Assembly: GCA_024276695.1 (NCBI GenBank)
Contig: JAJRWR010000008.1
Span: forward strand, 1-64,000
From: an archaeon
Lineage (GTDB): Archaea > Thermoproteota > Nitrososphaeria > Nitrososphaerales > Nitrosopumilaceae
Reading direction: 5' to 3'
DNA length: 64,000 bases
Position numbers and translations under genes: made by a program. Every line of letters begins with the position of its first letter. The first letter of the stretch is position 1. Positions 4,062 through 60,448 of the stretch are shown one piece after another. The notes below the pieces were generated by a model that saw nothing but the letters and a program-made list of their open reading frames with translations, made no database searches and was not told the origin of the DNA.

Positions 4062-5860
4062 TCACCCTTTCCAGTTTTTGTATGATAGCTGGAATCACTT
4101 CCATAATCTAAGTAAAAATCAGGATCTTCCTCGATAGTCGGAGGAGTAATCAATGGCTCCAATATTTTTTTAATCTCGACAATTGATTTTATTTCAGAAT
4201 CCTCATTACCATTTACAACTCTGTGAATCCATGTTTTCAAAGTGTCATCAGATTTTTTGTTTTCTTTGAAAATTTCAATTATTTTTAGAAGTACAGGTAT
4301 TACTCTTTTTGCAGGAACTCTAAGAAGGGTTTGTCCCAACATAGTATCGCCATCAGAACGTCCGCCTATAGACATCTGATAATTAGCATACATATCTTTT
4401 CCAACACGCCCACCACCTCCAAAGAATCCAATAGTTGCAATTCCATGTTGTCCACAGGAATTAGGGCAACCGCTAATCTTGATAGAAGAATCACTAAGAT
4501 CATCATCTTCATCAAGTTTTAATTCAAGGAATTTTCTTTGAATTTCTTTTGCAAGTCTATGGGAATTTGTTAGTGCTAAATTACAAGAAGTGGTTCCAGA
4601 ACAACCAATTGGAGCAGTCATGGTTAAGGCACCAGATTTTGCCAATCCAACCTCAATGAGTTTAGAATACAAACGTGGTAAATCATCTTCATGAACATAT
4701 CTTAAAGCAATATTTTGAGCAAAACCAGATCTAGCCTTACCTTCTGAGGAAAAATTACGGATAATATCAGCTAATGCATATAGTTGACTAGCAGTAATAT
4801 CACCTGCCTCAAGAGTAAGAAATACTGAACGATAATCAGATTGGGTTTGTTTTACAGTATTTGTTTTGAGCCATCTGGCAAATCCATTTGGAGCAGTATC
4901 ACTTCCACTTTCATCAGAAATTCGAATTGGACGTTTAATTTCATTTGGAGTATGATCAACATCTAATTGAGTAATAACGGATTGTGTTGCTCTAACTACA
5001 GATCTTTCCTTAAGAACAAGATTTTGGAATTTCTCCCAACCCATATCGTTTACAAGATAACGCATCCTATTTCTCGCAAGATTTTTTCTATCACCCAATC
5101 TATCAAAAATTCGCATTACAGCGATTGAAGTGTAAAGTAAATCCTCTTCAGGAGTAAAATCTTCGAGTTGGTGACCTACAAAAGATTTGTTTCCCAACCC
5201 ACCACCAAGGAAAATTTTAAATCCTCTTTGAGGGGAACCATCAACATCTCTAATTTGAGGGATCAATCCAACATCAACCATTCGTACCATCCCATGTTTT
5301 TCACAACAAGTAAAATTAAATTTGAATTTTCTAGGCAAGTTTTGAGCCATAGGGTTTCTCAAAAAGAATCTAGCAGTTGCTAGGGCATAAGGAGTCGAAT
5401 CAAATTCTTCATCAGGACAAACACCGGACAAAGGACTACACATTACATTTCTAACAGAATTTCCACATGCTTCTCGAGATGTTAATCCAACTTCTGCAAG
5501 AGATCTAAATATTTCAGATACATCTTCAAGGATTATCCAATGAAGTTGAATGTTTTCCCGAGTAGAAAAATGCGCACTACCTATAGAATATTGTTCACTT
5601 AGTTGAGATATCTTTTCAATTTGATCAGGATAAATTTCTCCTGCAGGAAGTTTGATTCTCACCATTGCATAATCACTAGTCATCCTAGTTCCATATGCAC
5701 CATGTTGAAGTCTAAATCGTCTAAAACTGTCTTCATCATATTTTCCCTGACGGAATAATTTCACAGTTTTAGCAAAATTGTCAGCCTCCTCAACTTTACC
5801 CCAGTTTATTTTAGATTTTACAGAATCAGGTGGAGATTGTTTAAGATCAGAGATGGTCAA
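4049..5860 (-). CDS. Siroheme [4Fe-4S] sulfite/nitrite reductase
   Basis: The 603-residue protein has the two-fold repeated architecture of ferredoxin-dependent assimilatory sulfite and nitrite reductases. The cluster/siroheme ligands are clear: a CSGTTSC motif followed by a GCPNSCGQHG motif near 4440-4475. An early ACGNSVRN segment is also typical. It performs a six-electron reduction to sulfide or ammonia. Because it is directly followed by a rhodanese gene, and cysteine synthase and a TusA-like carrier lie 9 kb away, sulfite reduction for cysteine synthesis is more likely than nitrite reduction; this is inference. The start is TTG at 5858-5860. No reductase flavoprotein is adjacent. Confidence 0.9.
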   Translation of the reverse strand: MTISDLKQSPPDSVKSKINWGKVEEADNFAKTVKLFRQGKYDEDSFRRFRLQHGAYGTRMTSDYAMVRIKLPAGEIYPDQIEKISQLSEQYSIGSAHFSTRENIQLHWIILEDVSEIFRSLAEVGLTSREACGNSVRNVMCSPLSGVCPDEEFDSTPYALATARFFLRNPMAQNLPRKFKFNFTCCEKHGMVRMVDVGLIPQIRDVDGSPQRGFKIFLGGGLGNKSFVGHQLEDFTPEEDLLYTSIAVMRIFDRLGDRKNLARNRMRYLVNDMGWEKFQNLVLKERSVVRATQSVITQLDVDHTPNEIKRPIRISDESGSDTAPNGFARWLKTNTVKQTQSDYRSVFLTLEAGDITASQLYALADIIRNFSSEGKARSGFAQNIALRYVHEDDLPRLYSKLIEVGLAKSGALTMTAPIGCSGTTSCNLALTNSHRLAKEIQRKFLELKLDEDDDLSDSSIKISGCPNSCGQHGIATIGFFGGGGRVGKDMYANYQMSIGGRSDGDTMLGQTLLRVPAKRVIPVLLKIIEIFKENKKSDDTLKTWIHRVVNGNEDSEIKSIVEIKKILEPLITPPTIEEDPDFYLDYGSDSSYHTKTGKGECAA

Positions 5861-6049: not shown

Positions 6050-6868
6050 ATGCAAGAAGCAACTGTTGCAGTACAATCAGAAAAAATTTTTACTGACATA
6101 CGTGAAGTTGAAATTACACGTGCAATTGCAAATGAATTTCATGATGTATTAGTTGATAGAGCAGAATCAGATGTAATCATTATTGGTGCAGGTCCTGCAG
6201 GATTAACAGCAAGTAGAGAATTATCCAATATGGGTTACAAAGTTTTAGTTATTGAACAAAACAACTATCTCGGAGGAGGTTACTGGTTAGGAGGATATAT
6301 GATGAATCCAGTTACAGTTAGAGAGCCAGCTCAAAAAATTTGGGATGAATTGGGAGTACCATACAAAAAAGTACAAGAAGGATTGTATTTGACACCAGGT
6401 CCACATGCAGTTTCAAAATTAATTGCTGCAGCATGTGATGCAGGAGTAAAGTTTCTTCAATTAACAAAATTTGATGATTTAGTACTAAAAAATGGAAGAG
6501 TTGCAGGAATTGTCGTTAATTGGATGCCAGTTTCAGCATTACCACGAAACATTACATGTGTTGATCCAGTTGCATTTGAAGCAAAAATTATCATTGATGC
6601 ATCAGGTCACGATTCAGTTGCAGTAAAAAGACTGGTAGATAGAGGTTTAGCTAAATGGAAAGGGATGGAACCAATGTATGTCAACGATGGAGAAGAGCAT
6701 GTTGTTCATAAGACAGGGGAAGTTTATCCAGGATTAGTTGCTGCAGGCATGTCAGTAACGGAAACGCATGGACTAGCAAGGATGGGTCCAACATTTGGTT
6801 CTATGTTATACTCAGGCAAAAGAGCAGCTGAAATAACTGCACAAAAAATCAAAGAGTTAGAAAGATAA
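6050..6868 (+). CDS. thi4: Thiamine thiazole synthase (Thi4 family)
   Basis: A 272-residue FAD/NAD-binding-fold protein of normal Thi4 length. The dinucleotide motif is IIGAGPAG (residues 44-51), followed by the Thi4 signature around residues 72-90 with GGGYWLGG. The protein makes the thiazole moiety of thiamine from NAD, glycine and sulfur. The residue just before the VDP motif is Cys170. In yeast Thi4 this position is the cysteine that donates its sulfur in a single-turnover reaction, whereas methanogen enzymes have histidine and use free sulfide. This archaeal protein is therefore predicted to be the suicidal type. The gene is monocistronic or leads the next gene 21 bases downstream. I see no TPP riboswitch upstream. 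Confidence 0.92.
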   Translation: MQEATVAVQSEKIFTDIREVEITRAIANEFHDVLVDRAESDVIIIGAGPAGLTASRELSNMGYKVLVIEQNNYLGGGYWLGGYMMNPVTVREPAQKIWDELGVPYKKVQEGLYLTPGPHAVSKLIAAACDAGVKFLQLTKFDDLVLKNGRVAGIVVNWMPVSALPRNITCVDPVAFEAKIIIDASGHDSVAVKRLVDRGLAKWKGMEPMYVNDGEEHVVHKTGEVYPGLVAAGMSVTETHGLARMGPTFGSMLYSGKRAAEITAQKIKELER

Positions 6869-27052: not shown

Positions 27053-28147
27053 CTAGTCACCAGCAACAAATTTTTCACACGCAGTTTTTGCTTTAACATC
27101 AGAAGTTTGTTCTATCGGATGTTTCATCAAATAAGCACTGGCAGGTTTGATTGGCCCACCTACGCCTCTATCAAGTGCTATTCTTGCCAATCTAATTGCA
27201 TCAATCACAATACCTGCAGAGTTTGCTTTATCATCTACTTCTAAACGAACTTCCATATTGTAAGGAATGTTTGCCCATTGGCGACCTTCGATTCTCATAA
27301 ACATTAGTTTGGTGTTACCTAAGAATGGAATAAAATCAGAAGGGCCAACATAAATTTGATCATCATCCAATCTTTCTTTAAGTTGACTTTGAACACTTTC
27401 GGTTTTAGAAATTCTCTTTGATGCTAGTCTATCTTGTTCTTTCATATTTAAGAAATCAGTATTTCCTCCAACGTTAATCTGATATGTTTTTTCAATTTTT
27501 GTTCCCCTATCGCTACAAAGTTTAGCCAAAGTTCTATGAACAATTGTTGCACCAACTTGACCTTTGATATCATCACCAATACAAGGAATGTTTGCATCTT
27601 CAAACTTTTTAGCCCATTTTTCATCTGATGCAATAAAGGATGGAATGCAATTTACAAATGCAGTGTTAGTATCAAGACAAATTTGAGCCCAAAACTCAGT
27701 TACCTTATCAGAACCTACAGGCAAATATGACACAATTATTTCTACGCCTCGCTCTTTAATGATTTGTTTTACTTCTTCGGCAATTTGTTCAGTAGTTTTT
27801 GTGCTGACAATAGGTTTTATTCTATTTTCTACCCATACTCCGACTCCATCTAAAATTGGACTTTCATATACTAGAGCATCATTTTTTGGTAAATCGTCTT
27901 TTGCAATCCAATCAACCATGTTGGGGTACTCATAAATTGCCTCATGCAAAAGTTTACCAACTTTATTTTCACCAACATCAAATCCACAAACAAAATCAAT
28001 ATCATGGATTCCATATCCTGCTAATTTATCATGAATAATTCCAGTAACTTCTTGAGAAGGGTTTTTTTTATAATATTCAATTCCCTGAATTAGGCCAGAA
28101 AAACAATTACCTATACCAACTAAACCAACTTTAATTCTATCTGACAT
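27053..28147 (-). CDS. ino1: Inositol-3-phosphate synthase
   Basis: The 364-residue protein begins at ATG 28145-28147; a longer TTG/ATG frame is open but adds a non-matching leader. The NAD motif is GLVGIGNCFSGLIQG, and later segments GDDIKGQVGATIVHRTL and NVGGNTDFLNM are diagnostic. It turns glucose-6-phosphate into inositol phosphate for archaeal phosphatidylinositol-type lipids. It is of the short prokaryotic class. The 104-base gap to the divergent deoxyhypusine synthase gene should hold both promoters. Confidence 0.95.
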   Translation of the reverse strand: MSDRIKVGLVGIGNCFSGLIQGIEYYKKNPSQEVTGIIHDKLAGYGIHDIDFVCGFDVGENKVGKLLHEAIYEYPNMVDWIAKDDLPKNDALVYESPILDGVGVWVENRIKPIVSTKTTEQIAEEVKQIIKERGVEIIVSYLPVGSDKVTEFWAQICLDTNTAFVNCIPSFIASDEKWAKKFEDANIPCIGDDIKGQVGATIVHRTLAKLCSDRGTKIEKTYQINVGGNTDFLNMKEQDRLASKRISKTESVQSQLKERLDDDQIYVGPSDFIPFLGNTKLMFMRIEGRQWANIPYNMEVRLEVDDKANSAGIVIDAIRLARIALDRGVGGPIKPASAYLMKHPIEQTSDVKAKTACEKFVAGD

Positions 28148-28251
28148 TCGAAATCTGGTATCATTGGACGGGTTTAAAGTTTTCTTAGATAATAGAAAGA
28201 AATTATTTCGATGAAGGCAGAATTTTATACTTGGCATCAACTCACAAATTC

Positions 28252-28563
28252 ATGGTAGAGCCAGGTCGCCCAGTAAAAGACATAGCAATTGATTCAAACA
28301 CATCATTAGAGGAAATTTTTGAGGAATTATCTCAATCAGGAGGATTCGAATCAGTAAATCTATCAGACGGATTAGAAATTTTGTCAGAAATGATTTCAAA
28401 TAAACAATGTTTAAGATTTGTTTCATTTGTAGGAGCAGTAGTATCTACAGGCCTAAGAGGAATAATTAAAGACATGATCAAAAACAAATGGTTTGATGTA
28501 GCAATTACTACATGTGGGGCATTAGACCATGACATTGCCAGACATTTTTCACATTACAAATAA
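28252..28563 (+). CDS. dys: Deoxyhypusine synthase, N-terminal part (ends at in-frame TAA)
   Basis: This 103-residue frame covers the N-terminal part of deoxyhypusine synthase: VKDIAIDS near the start, then FVSFVGAVVSTGLRG and TTCGALDHDIAR of the NAD-binding fold. It stops at TAA 28561-28563 right after HFSHYK. The same frame continues without interruption as GSFTMNDMELANQ and joins the second ORF. ATG 28252 is the best start. Deoxyhypusine synthase modifies initiation factor aIF5A with spermidine and is normally essential and one chain of about 310 residues. Confidence 0.88.
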   Translation: MVEPGRPVKDIAIDSNTSLEEIFEELSQSGGFESVNLSDGLEILSEMISNKQCLRFVSFVGAVVSTGLRGIIKDMIKNKWFDVAITTCGALDHDIARHFSHYK

Positions 28564-28575
28564 GGGTCGTTTACA

Positions 28576-29193
28576 ATGAATGATATGGAACTTGCAAATC
28601 AAAATATCCACAGGTTAGGCAACGTATTAGTTCCTATGAATAGTTACGGTCCACTAATTGAAGAAAAAATGCAAACATTCCTAGAAGAAGAGTATCAAAA
28701 TGGAATTAAAGAAATGAGTACCGCAGAAATATGTAAAATGATTGGAAAGCATTTAGGAGAAGATTCATTTCTTTATTGGGCATACAAAAACGACATCGAT
28801 GTAGTTGTTCCAGGGATTATGGATGGTGCAGTAGGAAGTCAAATTTGGCTATTTACACAAAAACATAGTGATTTTAAATTAAATGTGGTAGGAGACGCAA
28901 ACTTGCTTTCAGGATTAATTTTCAAAGCTGAAAAATCAGGAGCTTTTATGATTGGAGGAGGGATTTCAAAACACCATACATTATGGTGGAATCAATACAG
29001 AGAAGGTTTAGATTATGCATTTTACATAACTACTGCACAAGAATTTGATGGAAGTCTAAGTGGTGCATTAGTTAGAGAAGCAATTTCATGGGGGAAAGTA
29101 ACACAAGTAGCAAAACAATCAACGCTTCATGCAGAAGTTACAACGATACTTCCATTCATTTACGCTGCATTGATTTCAAAATTACAAAAATAG
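28576..29193 (+). CDS. dys: Deoxyhypusine synthase, C-terminal part
   Basis: The 205-residue second ORF holds the rest of the enzyme: GNVLVPMNSYGPLIE, the VVPGIMDGAVGSQ active-site segment and GGGISKHHTLWW with the catalytic lysine (Lys132 here). It begins with ATG 12 bases after the stop of the first part, in the same frame; another ATG is at 28585. Without the N-terminal part it lacks half of the NAD-binding site. It could be made by re-initiation or readthrough, or the stop may be a sequence error. Confidence 0.88.
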   Translation: MNDMELANQNIHRLGNVLVPMNSYGPLIEEKMQTFLEEEYQNGIKEMSTAEICKMIGKHLGEDSFLYWAYKNDIDVVVPGIMDGAVGSQIWLFTQKHSDFKLNVVGDANLLSGLIFKAEKSGAFMIGGGISKHHTLWWNQYREGLDYAFYITTAQEFDGSLSGALVREAISWGKVTQVAKQSTLHAEVTTILPFIYAALISKLQK

Positions 29194-29236: not shown

Positions 29237-29950
29237 TTGAATCCCATAATTAGAATTAGAGAACTAAGGAAATTAAATTTAGAGAATGGGTATCTCATAG
29301 ATGGATTTCCATCAGTCGGGTTTAGTAGTGCTATTGCAACTGAATCAATGATTCATACATCACAATTTGAGTTGGGGGGGATAATAGATTCAGAAAAATT
29401 TCCACCCATTAGCATTATAAAAGATGGAAAACCAAACTTTCCAACAAGAATATTTGTTAATGAAGATTTGAAAGTAGGAGTTTTTTTGTCATATCTTACT
29501 ATAGACCAATCATTGCATAAAGTTACAGCAAAAACAATGTTATCATGGGCAAAAAAACATAAAATCAAATTAATTGTCAGTAGTGTTGCAATAAAATCTC
29601 CTGACAGAGATGAAGAAATGATAGGAATAGGAAGTACTGAATCTGCAAGAAAAGAAGTGAAAGAAGCAGGACTTAAAGTTTTAGAACATGGAACAGTTCC
29701 AGGGATTCCAGGGATGTTATTAAACGAAGGAAGCATGTCAAACCAAGATGTCATCGTAATAATTTTTCATACAGATGGAAAAGGTCCTGATTTTAAATCA
29801 AGTGCTAAACTATGCATGGCAATGTCAAAATTAATTCCAGGAACATCATGTGATATTCCTTCATTACAAAAAGAGGCAGAAAAAGCTGAAATTGTCATCA
29901 AAGAGGCACAAGAAGAATCCGAATATCTCAAAGACTCCATGTATAGATGA
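29237..29950 (+). CDS. PAC2-family proteasome-assembly-chaperone-like protein
   Basis: A 237-residue protein with the PAC2 layout: LIDGFPSVGFSSAIATE near residue 20 and GIPGMLLNE near 155. Members bind the C-terminal HbYX region of proteasomal alpha subunits or related partners. The C-terminal 40 residues form a charged coiled-coil-like helix. The start is TTG 29237. No proteasome gene is adjacent, so the partner is unproven. Confidence 0.85.
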   Translation: MNPIIRIRELRKLNLENGYLIDGFPSVGFSSAIATESMIHTSQFELGGIIDSEKFPPISIIKDGKPNFPTRIFVNEDLKVGVFLSYLTIDQSLHKVTAKTMLSWAKKHKIKLIVSSVAIKSPDRDEEMIGIGSTESARKEVKEAGLKVLEHGTVPGIPGMLLNEGSMSNQDVIVIIFHTDGKGPDFKSSAKLCMAMSKLIPGTSCDIPSLQKEAEKAEIVIKEAQEESEYLKDSMYR

Positions 29951-30853: not shown

Positions 30854-31349
30854 TTTCCATTGTAGAAACATTACGTTGTTTTCCATCTTGAGAAGTTAAA
30901 GAATCAGATGAAATTCTCACATCACTAATCACATATCCAACAGAATCCATACGTTTTACAATCATTTGAGATACATCTACAGCTTGTGTAATTCGTTTTC
31001 CCCGTGCTTTTATTGTAACAGTAGTTCTTGTTGAAAGTTGAGTTAAAGTTGCAGAAACATAAGTCATGATTGGTTTAGTGCCAACGAAAATTACATCGCG
31101 TTCTTCTGGAACTTTTCGTGGTTCAGATGAGTTGTTTGATAAGGGTTCAGGTTCAGGAGTTGGTTCAGGTTCAGGAGTTGGTTCAGGTTCAGGAGTTGGT
31201 TCAGGTTCAGGAGTTGGTTCAGGTTCAGGAGTTGGTTCAGGTTCAGGAGTTGGTTCAGGTTCAGGAGTTGGTTCAGGTTCAGGATTAATTCTAGAGTCAA
31301 ATTCAGATAGAATGTCTTCTGCGTCTTTAGATTTTTTATTACTACTCAA
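30834..31349 (-). CDS. Alba-family nucleic-acid-binding protein with PEPEPT-repeat tail
   Basis: The 171-residue protein is bipartite. Residues about 83-171 are an Alba domain: [20 protein letters not shown], then [17 protein letters not shown] with the basic loop that contacts DNA or RNA, and the last strand NVSTMEIDI. Residues 22-69 are eight units of PEPEPT (last unit PEPEPL), an acidic, rigid Pro-rich tail. Alba normally has about 90 residues and no such tail. The tail may prevent cooperative DNA coating or recruit partners. TTG 31347-31349 is the start. Identity of the domain is secure; the tail's role is inference. Confidence 0.92.
31144..31287 (-). repeat. 18-bp tandem repeat encoding PEPEPT
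   Basis: Eight 18-base units, seven identical and the last changed in three bases, encode the acidic Alba tail. Being a multiple of three, the array can expand or contract in frame and is likely to vary between strains. Confidence 0.95.
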
Positions 31350-40255: not shown

Positions 40256-41128
40256 TTATTTTACGTTAAAAAAATCAGTTACCACAACATCATGATATTG
40301 TAGTTGTGTAACATAAAGCCCAGATTCAAATGAACGAGATACAACTTCGGTGAATAATCCGGAGGAATTATCTTTTAGTGCAATCTCTTCAATCAAAGTG
40401 TCTCTTTGATCATAAACATCTACAAAAAGATCTTCTCTAAATGCAAGAGTTTTTTGAACAGCGCCAGAAACAATCAATTTATCACCATCATAAATGGCTT
40501 CAACTACTGCAGCACAAGATCGTAGTGGAAGATATCGTTCAATGATAGTTTTTAATTCATTAAGGTTGTCATCCACATCTTCAATATCTTTGTCTTTGAA
40601 TGCAAATTCAATTTCATTGATTACTGATGCAAATCTAGGATTTGGTGGAGGGCTGTCAGTTGCAGTCTCACTGTTCGTGAGAACTTTCTTCTCATCCACT
40701 CCCTCGGTTTTGATAGCTACCTCTTTGAGAACCTCGGCGTTTGTCTCTTCCATCTTTGCGACTTTGTCGACTTTTGCCTTGATTTCCTCAATTGGTTTAA
40801 CTACCTCAGCTTTGATTGCCTCAATAACAGATGGTGTTACTTCCTTGACAATTGTTTCAATATCGGCGTGTTTGTTTGACCCCAGAAGGACTGCCCGCCT
40901 CATGTTTGCAAACTTTGTCTGGTGCCAGATTGGTTTTAGCACCCTTATTGGTCTGCCGTCCTTTTCCCTCAGTCTTGGGTGTATTACGCCTCCTGCCCAC
41001 TCGAAGAACTTTTCATAGTTGTATAGTGTTTTTTTGTCAGGCAGGAAATCAACCAGTCCTTGCTTGTGACCTGAGAGAAGATGCGAGTATATCTCACTTT
41101 GTGAATATCTTTCTAAGATCATTGTCAT
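40256..41128 (-). CDS. Chimeric ORF: foreign N-terminal part fused to a host beta-rich domain
   Basis: The 290 residues fall into two parts. Residues 1 to about 155 are encoded by G+C-rich DNA (for example 31 of 60 bases at 40921-40980) and look like a mobile-element protein with a long coiled stretch (residues 85-150). After an SPPPNP linker, residues 165-290 are encoded by ordinary AT-rich DNA and form a helix plus an Ig-like beta domain (GDKLIVSGAVQK ... SGLYVTQLQYHD). The same domain occurs in the pseudogene at 42.4-43.1 kb. The fusion is in frame. The most economical reading is an insertion that captured the 3' end of a host gene. Function unknown. Confidence 0.7.
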   Translation of the reverse strand: MTMILERYSQSEIYSHLLSGHKQGLVDFLPDKKTLYNYEKFFEWAGGVIHPRLREKDGRPIRVLKPIWHQTKFANMRRAVLLGSNKHADIETIVKEVTPSVIEAIKAEVVKPIEEIKAKVDKVAKMEETNAEVLKEVAIKTEGVDEKKVLTNSETATDSPPPNPRFASVINEIEFAFKDKDIEDVDDNLNELKTIIERYLPLRSCAAVVEAIYDGDKLIVSGAVQKTLAFREDLFVDVYDQRDTLIEEIALKDNSSGLFTEVVSRSFESGLYVTQLQYHDVVVTDFFNVK

Positions 41129-41486
41129 TTTCTATTATCGCCTGCGATGCTGAGAGATAGTTTGATAGTAATGGCTGCATTGATGTTATCATTGAGAGGA
41201 TCTTGACTTTCTTGTACGGGTCTTCTTCTATGTTGTAGTTCTCCCATGCAAGTGATATGGATAGTTCTATCTGGTCTATTCTTTGTATGTGGGAATCCCA
41301 CAGTCCGTACTTTGCAAGCTCGAACTTTCTTTTTTGTCCCTCGTCACGGATTGCCTTTTTGTCTTTTGAGAGGGTTGCACGCTTGATGTCATGTCCCTTT
41401 GATTTGAGATAGAGTAATGTATCTTTTTCAGACAGTCTCATCACCATTGTATGAAGAACGAAATTTTGCCTGTCAGTTATTGTCAT
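41094..41486 (-). CDS. Hypothetical protein of the foreign-looking block
   Basis: A 130-residue basic, helical protein (ATG 41484-41486). An N-terminal helix-turn-helix-like region (RLSEKDTLLYLKSKGHDIKR) suggests DNA binding, as in small terminase-like or replication accessory proteins. It overlaps the following chimeric ORF by 35 bases, an operon-like arrangement inherited from the element. No family can be named. Confidence 0.6.
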   Translation of the reverse strand: MTITDRQNFVLHTMVMRLSEKDTLLYLKSKGHDIKRATLSKDKKAIRDEGQKRKFELAKYGLWDSHIQRIDQIELSISLAWENYNIEEDPYKKVKILSMITSMQPLLSNYLSASQAIIENDNDLRKIFTK

Positions 41487-41530
41487 AGTATGACTGTATG
41501 GTAGACAAAATGTCTATTGAAGAAGTATTT

Positions 41531-41939
41531 TCAAATGTTATTGTTTGTGGATGTTTTTTTACGAGGTTTCCAGAAAATTATTCTTAGATTACCTCCAGGA
41601 AACCTAGATGCTGCAGAGTCAACTCTTATTTTGAAACCGTTCTTTTTTGCTTTTTCTATGGTATGAATAAATTGTTTGGAATCAAAATAATATGGATAAG
41701 AAATGAACAGATGTGAATTTAGTGGTTATATGATCTCCTAAGGGTTTCTTAGGATACCAGGAGGGTAATGAAACTGTAGATGTTTTTGCAATTTTCAACA
41801 TAGCCTCATCTAATGCAAGAAACGTACTATACACACCTTCAAATTCACTATATTTTGGATCGAGTTTTTTTGCAATTTTCGTTATGCGTTCTAATTGTGA
41901 TTTTGTGAATACTTCTTCCATCCATTCTATACTTGTCAT
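41531..41939 (-). pseudogene. Frameshifted hypothetical gene
   Basis: The frame from ATG 41937-41939 runs 85 codons to a stop at 41682, but the natural continuation is in another frame: from about 41718 it reads NSHLFISYPYYFDSKQF, then a basic SRFPGGNLRIIFWKPRKK region, ending at TGA 41531-41533. Removing one base of the A-run (TTT at 41718-41720 on the plus strand) restores a single frame of about 135 residues. Base composition is AT-rich like the host. The product is unknown. Confidence 0.6.
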
Positions 41940-41990
41940 AATAAATCAAAGAAATACTAGTTTAATTCTTTTATTATTAGATTAATTCTA

Positions 41991-42389
41991 TTAGTTGTAT
42001 TTTTTTGTATCAGTCTCGTTGTATTTTTGAATGATCAATCTCGTCTTCTTTCCCCAAATCATTCTTGCTATGTCTATGGGGTTGAGTCTCTTGTTTTTGA
42101 CTGAATCTGGAAGCTTGATTCTTTTCTCACTCCACCTGAATTTTTGAAATACACGGTCATCTGTTATGTCATGGTATTTTTTCTGGGTTACAATGTTGTA
42201 TCCACAGCCACAGGGACAAAGGTATGATCCTTGGATTTTCATTATTACTGCCTTGGCGTTATTTTCTGGCCAGTGCTCTAACCTTTCCCTGATTCGCTGG
42301 TTCTGTCTTAGGGATACGCCAAACTTTGCTGCCATCTGCCTGTAACCACCATCAGCGTACAGTATCTTGAACATGGCCTTTTGCAGCAA
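41991..42389 (-). CDS. HTH/zinc-motif protein of the foreign-looking block
   Basis: The 132-residue protein (TTG 42387-42389; the frame is open to about 42428) begins with a helix-turn-helix-like region (YRQMAAKFGVSLRQNQRIRE), has a CPCGC zinc-like motif, and a basic C-terminal half. G+C content is high. It fits a regulator or recombination accessory protein of a mobile element. Upstream its frame runs into the broken host domain. Confidence 0.55.
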   Translation of the reverse strand: MLQKAMFKILYADGGYRQMAAKFGVSLRQNQRIRERLEHWPENNAKAVIMKIQGSYLCPCGCGYNIVTQKKYHDITDDRVFQKFRWSEKRIKLPDSVKNKRLNPIDIARMIWGKKTRLIIQKYNETDTKKYN

Positions 42390-42403
42390 GGTTGCAGATT
42401 CCT

Positions 42404-43054
42404 TCAGGTCCTGCTCAAATCGGCATTATTGTATTCATAATCAAATTCTTCTTCAACATATAGGATTTGGGAAGCCTTAGAATCACGATATTGGAACATT
42501 ACAATGTAGAGTCCAGAATCAGTAGGAGCTGTCCATTGAGTAAAAAAGTTACCCTGTTTAGTATCAATGAATTCAAGACTGCTATGGGTAGTTCCATCCA
42601 TATTATACACAGTGACATACAAGTTTTCCCGTCTATCAAAGTTAGATTTTTCAGTTGCACCATTAATCACCTAAATATCTTTTTCAGGATCAAATGAAAT
42701 ATCATAGATTATACTAGCACTATCAAGTACCAAATATTCACTTAGATAATTACCGATTTCAGATGTCTTTAATTCAGCATCAATAAAATTTGCCAATTGA
42801 ATCATTTCATCAGCATCAGCCATCATTTTATTGTACTCGTCAACATATTCTGAAAATCCCGCATTATAGAAAGTTGATACCATATTCGAGAAAGTATCTA
42901 ATTTTTTACGAAATTCAATACGTTTGATTTCATCAGCAGTATAACCAACATCAGAACCTAGTGGATCATCAGCGTATGCTTTTGAAACCATGCTCCATTC
43001 ATCAAATAAATCACGAACTAATTCATCAGTTTGATCAAGATCATTTTTAATCAC
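42404..43054 (-). pseudogene. Host gene with an in-frame TAG and truncated end (helical plus Ig-like domain)
   Basis: One frame runs from GTG 43052-43054 to 42404, broken only by TAG 42671-42673. The first 127 residues are helical. After the stop the frame continues at once with VINGATEKSNFD and an Ig-like domain that ends SGLYIVMFQYRD, matching the domain at the end of the chimeric ORF (SGAVQK ... SGLYVTQLQYHD). There the chain is continuous at the equivalent point, so the TAG is probably a nonsense mutation. The 3' end changes abruptly to foreign-looking sequence near 42425. Confidence 0.65.
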
Positions 43055-43270
43055 AAGATCTCGTACGTTGTCAATTTTTTCGACTTCCTAGAAATCATAG
43101 ATAAAACTAAAGAAATTAGAGTCATTCTGTGACAGTTGTAAGCCAAAATTAGATACAGCAATCTTTTGTTTTCATTATATTGCAATGTGATTTAGTATGA
43201 GATCCAAATCGAGGCTCATGATACTTAACTTGAGTAGCTATGATATGAAACATTTGTTGAATTTCACAAA

Positions 43271-57903: not shown

Positions 57904-57997
57904 GTTAGAAATATAGGTTTTAGGAGCTAATAATATCAGGGTATTATAATATAGATTTATGATATAGGTTTTATTACATGGTTTGAAAAGTAATGAC

Positions 57998-60019
57998 ATG
58001 AAAATATTGCTAGTTATCATACTAGCTATTTCAGTATCCATAATCATGTATGATGAATCTTTTGCAGAAAAAAGCACATATTTTGATTCAGTAAAATTTA
58101 TTCAATATTTAGATGAGAACACTGCACTTGAAGAAGTTCGAAATGGGAATCTTGATGTATATTATTATACAGTTTCGCCAGATAGATTAGAAACTAATCA
58201 AGCAAGAGAAGGATTACAAGTTTTCGATTCTACAGGGGGATCATATAGCATCATTGTAAATCCTGCAGAGTCTGAAGAATTCAATCCATTTTCAAATCAA
58301 GAAATTAGATTTGCATTAAATTATTTGGTAGATAGAAAACTAATTGTAAATGAATTGATGGGAGGATATGGGGCACCAATCATTTCGTACTATACACCAT
58401 CAGAACCAGAATACCTTACAGTGATTGGGCAATTAGAGTTATTCAATTTCAAATACAATCCTGGGCTTGCAAACGAAATCATCACCAAAGCACTAAAAGA
58501 AAAAGGAGCAAATAAAATTAATGATAAATGGCAAATGAATGAAAAACCAATTACAATTACAATGTTCATTAGAAGTGATGATCCTGTCAGAAAATCAATT
58601 GGCGAAATTTTGGCAGTAGAATTAGAGAGAGTTGGGTTTACAGTCAAGAAAGATTTTGGAGATCTTAACAAAGCATATGTTGTTGTTTATGGGTCAAACC
58701 CATCTGATTTGAAATGGAGTTTATACACTGAAGGGTGGGGACGTTCAGCATTTGTAAAATATGATTCTATAGGATTAGGGCAAATGTATTCACCTTGGTT
58801 TTCAAACATGCCAGGATTCAATGATCCTACATATTGGAATTACAAAAATGACAAACTAGATGAATTAACTCAGAAAATATACACAGGTGATTTTGAATCA
58901 TCAGAAAAAAGATCAGAGTTAATTCAAGAGGCGGTAATTGAAGGGGTTAATGAATCAGTCAGAATTTTTTTGGCAAGCAAAATTGATCAGTATGTTGTAA
59001 ATAATAGGGTCATTGGGATAGTCAATGATTTTGGTGCAGGAGTTCCAAGTAGATTTACTCCAATTAATGCAAAAAGTGATAATAATGAATTTGTTATCGG
59101 CGTAAAACAAATCTATCAAGCAGCATGGAATCCAGTTATGGGCTTATCTGATAGTTATAGTAGACAAATTTGGGGAATTATCTCAGATCCTGCAACATTC
59201 AAGCATCCATTTACAGGCGAAACATTTCCAATCAGGGCAGAGTGGAAAGTAGAAACTGCAGGACCAAATGGGAAACTCGATGTACCACAAAATGCAAAAG
59301 TGTGGAATCCAACATTACAAAAATGGAGTAATGTGTATCCAAATACTTTAGCTACAAGCAAAGTAGTATTTGATTTTAATTTCAGTAATTGGCATAATGG
59401 AGAAAAAATGGATATGAATGATATTTTGCATTCATTATATTTTACAACAGAATGGGGAACACAGACTGATGAAAACGATAAAACTTTTGATGCAGAATTC
59501 ACTCCAAGGGCAGCACAAAGTATTGAAACAATAATAGGAATAAACCCAATAGATAAGGACACACTTGAGGTATATGTAGACTATTGGCATTTTGATGAGG
59601 GTGAAATTGCTGATTGGGCAGTATTGTGGAGTTCAATGCCTTGGGAGATTACAGTCGCAATGGAAAAAGCAGTAATAGATGGCAAAGTTTCATTTTCCAG
59701 ATCAGGGGCAACAAGCAAAAATGTTAATTGGTTATCATTAATTATTCCAAATGATGCAAATACTATCAAAGATTATTTACAAGAATTCAAAGATAGCAAC
59801 TACATCCCTGAAGCATTAAATGAAAATAATCAAAATTTGAAATATTATCAAAATAGATATGATTCCTCGATAAAATGGATTGAGAAGAATAACCATGCAG
59901 TGATTAGTAATGGACCATTTTATCTCAAATCATATTCACCAGAATCTCGAACTATTACAGTTAATGCGTTTGATGATGACTCTTATCCATTTAAAATTGG
60001 GGAATGGTCAAAATTTTAA
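57998..60019 (+). CDS. Extracellular peptide-type solute-binding protein, truncated by in-frame TAA
   Basis: From ATG 57998 the protein has a signal peptide (first 23 residues, ending SFA) and an SBP_bac_5-like body of about 650 residues in two halves. It ends at TAA 60017-60019 after GEWSKF. The DNA continues in the same frame for 142 codons, which give a strand-rich domain and a transmembrane helix, as in full-length archaeal relatives that are membrane-anchored. As drawn, the protein would be released unanchored. It probably serves an OppBCDF-type importer; an OppF gene lies at 21.6 kb. Confidence 0.85.
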   Translation: MKILLVIILAISVSIIMYDESFAEKSTYFDSVKFIQYLDENTALEEVRNGNLDVYYYTVSPDRLETNQAREGLQVFDSTGGSYSIIVNPAESEEFNPFSNQEIRFALNYLVDRKLIVNELMGGYGAPIISYYTPSEPEYLTVIGQLELFNFKYNPGLANEIITKALKEKGANKINDKWQMNEKPITITMFIRSDDPVRKSIGEILAVELERVGFTVKKDFGDLNKAYVVVYGSNPSDLKWSLYTEGWGRSAFVKYDSIGLGQMYSPWFSNMPGFNDPTYWNYKNDKLDELTQKIYTGDFESSEKRSELIQEAVIEGVNESVRIFLASKIDQYVVNNRVIGIVNDFGAGVPSRFTPINAKSDNNEFVIGVKQIYQAAWNPVMGLSDSYSRQIWGIISDPATFKHPFTGETFPIRAEWKVETAGPNGKLDVPQNAKVWNPTLQKWSNVYPNTLATSKVVFDFNFSNWHNGEKMDMNDILHSLYFTTEWGTQTDENDKTFDAEFTPRAAQSIETIIGINPIDKDTLEVYVDYWHFDEGEIADWAVLWSSMPWEITVAMEKAVIDGKVSFSRSGATSKNVNWLSLIIPNDANTIKDYLQEFKDSNYIPEALNENNQNLKYYQNRYDSSIKWIEKNNHAVISNGPFYLKSYSPESRTITVNAFDDDSYPFKIGEWSKF

Positions 60020-60448
60020 AATACAGAATTTCCAATAATCAAAAAAATAGATTTGGAAAAGGTTGTTCAACGAGGAGATGATTTCAAAATAGGCATAGAA
60101 ACAGAGAATGCAGACTATATTTTGTACTTTTTAACAAATAGTGAAGGAAAACAAGTATCATCAGAAACACTAGAAATAGAAAATAATGACACAGTCATAA
60201 ATTTGCCTTTAGAGAAAACCCAGAATTTGGGAATTGGTGCAAACAATATCAAAATTTTTGCAATTTCAGATTCAGTTCTAAAACCTGATTTTTATGAATC
60301 AAGTTTCATGATTATTGAAGAAAAAACAGAATTGCCAACAAGTTTGACAGAAAATGTAGAATTTTCAGAAAATAAATCAGATTATTCTATTTTTATTATT
60401 CTAATAGTGGCAATTATCGGAGTAATAATTTATCTAAAAAAGAGGTAA
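60020..60448 (+). CDS. C-terminal anchor part of the solute-binding protein, cut off by the stop
   Basis: The first codon after the stop is in frame; the nearest start is TTG 60053. The frame reads FPIIKKIDLEKVV, a beta-rich region, then a Ser/Glu-rich stalk and a membrane helix (SIFIILIVAIIGVIIYL) with KKR at the end. It has no signal peptide, so it makes sense only as the rest of the preceding protein. It could be translated by readthrough, or lost. Confidence 0.8.
   Translation, partial: NTEFPIIKKIDLEKVVQRGDDFKIGIETENADYILYFLTNSEGKQVSSETLEIENNDTVINLPLEKTQNLGIGANNIKIFAISDSVLKPDFYESSFMIIEEKTELPTSLTENVEFSENKSDYSIFIILIVAIIGVIIYLKKR

Follow-up and report, generated by a model that had tools for sequence, protein, structure and literature searches.

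The in-frame TAA that interrupts the deoxyhypusine synthase (DHS) gene in the 64,000-nucleotide stretch of DNA analyzed here (the window) is best explained as a base-level sequence or assembly error at a codon that in the organism itself would specify Glu104 as GAA or GAG. To judge from sequence comparison, the probability of this explanation is roughly three in four. The main argument is that about one gene in 25 is abruptly broken in the same assembly, including indispensable ones. A single error process would then lie behind the DHS stop and the other point disruptions, and the DHS of the organism would be an ordinary single-chain enzyme. The source genome is Nitrosopumilus-like, its closest matches among genome contigs being Nitrosopumilus records.

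The initial annotation offered four origins for the stop: a one-base nonsense change, read-through, termination followed by restart, and a base-call error. A GAA-to-TAA change is indeed what the alignment displays, and the base-call error, which we infer from the genome-wide pattern of disruptions, is the best supported of the four, whereas read-through and restart gained no support.

The DHS gene and its orthologs

The two parts of the gene share one reading frame and, as first described, are split only by the TAA and four sense codons that precede the next ATG (Table 1). A single full-length match to PF01916 runs through the TAA, covering positions 2-287 of 288 (327 bits), and the separate parts score 118 bits (103 aa) and 300 bits (205 aa) against NF002294. 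The active-site lysine motif GGG-x-x-KHH is present as GGGISKHH; in the alignment, the same motif stands at this place in 8put, and human-type DHS has GGGVVKHH there. The DHS target aIF5A is intact in this genome and carries the hypusine loop KPGKHGSAK. The gene is predicted to encode a DHS, with transfer of an aminobutyl group to aIF5A as its expected activity. The frame itself is broken at codon 104, and this interruption is probably an assembly error. The genes for inositol-3-phosphate synthase (INO1) and a proteasome assembly chaperone flank DHS in the same order in relatives. Further downstream, a tandem repeat at 31091-31300 of the window encodes (EPTPEP)n; in many draft genomes of the genus the contig ends approximately 2 kb downstream of DHS, and this repeat is probably the cause.

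Table 1. Coordinates of the features discussed, numbered from the first nucleotide of the window
Feature	Position	Strand	Description
Inositol-3-phosphate synthase (INO1), DHS neighbour	27053..28150	-	intact, synteny conserved
Deoxyhypusine synthase gene (PF01916, NF002294 type)	28252..29193	+	313 codons plus stop, one in-frame TAA
DHS N-terminal part	28252..28563	+	103 codons plus TAA; NF002294 E=6e-34
In-frame TAA, codon 104	28561..28563	+	GAA or GAG (Glu) in relatives
DHS C-terminal part	28576..29193	+	205 codons; NF002294 E=3e-89; GGGISKHH motif; ATG is conserved internal Met 109
Proteasome assembly chaperone family protein, DHS neighbour	29246..29950	+	intact, synteny conserved
SBP_bac_5 family gene	57983..60448	+	single TAA 60017-60019; GAA in G012 and G007

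Codon 104 encodes glutamate in 93 of the 95 other distinct orthologs with more than 70% identity (GAA in 77, GAG in 16), and none of the 95 has a stop there. The TAA is therefore most simply derived from one base change, GAA to TAA, in agreement with the change proposed in the initial annotation. Of 95 genus members searched, the window's genome is the only one with a mid-gene DHS stop, and about 83 keep DHS without one, so that a stop conserved across the genus was rejected. Two further genomes that were also scored as having one TAA differ at the gene end only: the stop in G109 is at codon 312, and the match in G035 is intact to residue 311. The alignment to relatives is ungapped and proceeds residue for residue, with no inserted or missing bases at the TAA; an intron or other insertion, including a bulge-helix-bulge mRNA intron, was rejected because there is no extra sequence.

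Selection on the gene was measured by pairwise dN/dS and by counts of private differences. The dN/dS of DHS to near relatives is 0.03-0.06, other pairs separated by a similar distance have a median of 0.049, and the protein has no residues unseen in other orthologs. Outside the stop, the gene is under ordinary purifying selection and is not an old pseudogene; it displays neither relaxed constraint nor several disabling changes, only the one stop.

A separate observation concerns aIF5A in G060, a complete genome from another family of the same order. Here (G060:C1, about 949826-950244), 32 nt (TGCAACCTTGCATGGTGTAAGGTTGCCCAGAT) lie inside the codon of the hypusine lysine, and their removal restores KPGKHGSAKAR. 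In the folded transcript, two 3-nt bulges and a 4-bp central helix form a bulge-helix-bulge, and the cut sites expected from it fall exactly at the boundaries that the protein alignment gave independently. The 32 nt are likely to be an mRNA intron of archaeal type, placed in the codon for the lysine that is modified. A narrow literature search found no published description of an aIF5A intron, and the case looks more interesting than the DHS stop and deserves a study of its own.

Disrupted genes across the assembly

We compared 481 kb of the source genome (contigs C37, C35, C25, C3, and C15) with the corresponding parts of the complete genome of a relative, G007. Interruptions were flagged in 25 of 412 genes, and 16 were retained as abrupt single or point disruptions after curation by our own judgement, which removed tRNA-overlapping, antisense, start-extension, C-terminal, and multiply decayed cases. 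The stop in the SBP_bac_5 gene of the window is of the same kind as that in DHS, and so is the GAA-to-TAA change in the histidyl-tRNA synthetase gene (C15:58848). Other stops are found in the genes for pyruvate phosphate dikinase (TTA to TGA, C35:26239, in a protein 95% identical to its counterpart), Hsp20 (TAA at a GAG codon), and a PfkB-type kinase (AAA to TAA). One-base deletions affect argininosuccinate lyase, branched-chain aminotransferase, ribose-5-phosphate isomerase, a glutamine synthetase, Pus10, and others. All net one-base frameshifts in the affected genes are deletions, several of them within or beside short homopolymers.

Core functions are assigned to the broken genes for histidyl-tRNA synthetase and pyruvate phosphate dikinase and to the frameshifted genes named above. 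A viable autotroph cannot be without histidyl-tRNA synthetase. Simultaneous loss of several single-step biosynthetic enzymes, encoded by genes that are mostly about 90% or more identical to intact relatives, is likewise unlikely. Of the 121 genes with at least 93% identity, 4 are disrupted, so that even the most conserved ones are affected. In the reverse comparison, which served as a control, 5 of 418 genes were flagged; these were mostly antisense or start-extension ORFs, and none was convincing. Comparison of G012 with G007 over approximately 58 genes also yielded no convincing interruptions.

Some of the disruptions may nevertheless represent real decay, as suggested by two observations. 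Less conserved genes are disrupted at about 2.0 per 10,000 aa, compared with 0.8 in conserved ones, that is, approximately 2.6 times as often per residue. The ratio of nonsynonymous to synonymous private changes is 0.71 in this lineage versus 0.53 in G007 and 0.46 in G012, a modest excess per gene. Real decay and errors may thus coexist in this genome. Two loci with more extensive damage were noted. On the minus strand of the window at 40256-43141 (pieces 42413-43141 and 40259-40642) lie the remains of a gene related to a 985-aa protein of G007, with several stops and missing parts; this gene is probably genuinely decayed. At G000 C25:17056-19066, a response regulator, a 184-aa ORF, and a 233-aa ORF adjoin each other, all with stops or frameshifts relative to G007.

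These results carry a warning: raw reads are needed before a gene split by a single stop or a single frameshift in this assembly is taken as biology. Checking against one complete relative offers an inexpensive filter of general use for findings of this kind.

Possible loss of DHS and the second PF01916 gene

The explanation ranked second after a sequence error, though unlikely, is that the GAA-to-TAA change is real and recent, leaving a population without canonical DHS, in which aIF5A is either unmodified or modified by a paralogous PF01916 enzyme. A very recent mutation would leave no sign of decay, and selection is slightly relaxed in the lineage, both of which agree with this scenario. Against it stand the intact aIF5A with its hypusine loop, the retention of DHS in most genomes of the genus, and the fact that other genes of this assembly that look essential are broken too, a state in which an autotroph could not live. 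Moreover, the DHS inhibitor GC7 blocks growth in four archaeal species (PMC5178350).

Real loss is also favored by G011, a 96%-complete draft genome, where the INO1 and chaperone genes are only 180 bp apart (C52:1-8143, 6461-6642) and DHS is missing both from the gap and from the rest of the contigs searched. The neighbours are kept, a promoter-like stretch seems to be retained at the locus, and a gene of the NF001980 type is present elsewhere in the genome. G011 is a possible case of natural DHS loss in a Nitrosopumilus, so that members of the genus may be able to survive without the gene. It is also the only genome with an intact locus lacking DHS: absence from most other relatives (e.g., G032, G051, G110, and G043) is uninformative, because the adjacent SMC gene is truncated or has a contig start no more than a few hundred bases away. 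The absence of aIF5A from G011 is equally uninformative, since a neighbour of aIF5A is located at a contig end. In the same C52 region of G011, at 4644-5366, a single in-frame stop (IFNT*CKFG) interrupts a homolog of carbon-nitrogen hydrolases. The broader proposal that canonical DHS is dispensable in some Nitrosopumilus, being lost by a nonsense change here and by clean deletion in G011, with aIF5A unmodified or modified by the NF001980-type enzyme, seems to us quite improbable. If the stop were real, the archaeon behind the window would either lack an enzyme thought essential or have it in split form.

The initial annotation held that a second intact DHS gene elsewhere in the genome would speak against its view. 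An intact PF01916 gene is formally such a candidate (G000 C35:47179-48072), but it is a different paralog: its match to NF001980 (homospermidine biosynthesis protein) reaches 487 bits, above the cut-off of 450, and it lies far short of the DHS models. It is the only other PF01916 member in the genome, in which no second intact gene belonging to the DHS equivalog was found. Most relatives carry both genes, and thus the paralog is not a spare DHS; we rejected it as a backup on these grounds, although it could conceivably act on aIF5A. The NF001980 protein and DHS share the PF01916 fold family and belong to different equivalogs.

Translation at the TAA and comparison with known systems

A very improbable explanation is that the TAA is real and is read through as an amino acid, yielding the full-length enzyme. 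In its favor, both sides of the stop are conserved as one enzyme under constraint, and the same assembly has at least three other Glu-to-TAA cases (60017, C15:58848, and C3:27705). However, a tRNA able to read UAA, with anticodon UUA, is absent from the 43 Rfam tRNA matches, most of which were typed by ARAGORN and the rest by eye; both tRNA-Glu genes have the normal anticodons UUC and CUC. Ordinary genes of the window also end in TAA. In addition, TGA, TAG, and frameshifts occur among the remaining disruptions, so that one suppressor cannot explain them, and frameshifts are not recodable. An ochre suppressor or reassignment of UAA was rejected for these reasons, and the initial proposal of read-through finds no support.

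Still harder to credit is a restart of translation at ATG 28576 after termination at the TAA, with the two resulting chains co-assembling into an active DHS. In favor of this, the gap is only 12 nt, the frame is maintained, and the ATG comes next. Yet this ATG corresponds to the internal Met 109, which is conserved in 98 of 130 aligned DHS sequences. Just upstream of it, the gene can be seen to differ from intact relatives only by the stop and by synonymous changes, and the arrangement occurs in no other relative. Going by the known human structure, the break has residues of the active site on either side, and neither piece should therefore act alone. Restart at an ordinary internal methionine was thus rejected; with nearly identical sequence preceding it in intact relatives, this part of the initial annotation is unsupported as well.

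The two-chain scheme has a partial parallel in trypanosomatids, where DHS works with a catalytically dead paralog, so that two different polypeptides are needed (PMC3663545). That system is a pair of full-length paralogs, whereas in the window one chain is cut in two. The closer comparison is with the single-chain archaeal DHS (NF002294; PDB 8put, labelled probable deoxyhypusine synthase). The window gene matches the same model end to end, contains GGGISKHH, and lies in conserved synteny; it differs in the in-frame TAA at codon 104, which is absent in relatives.
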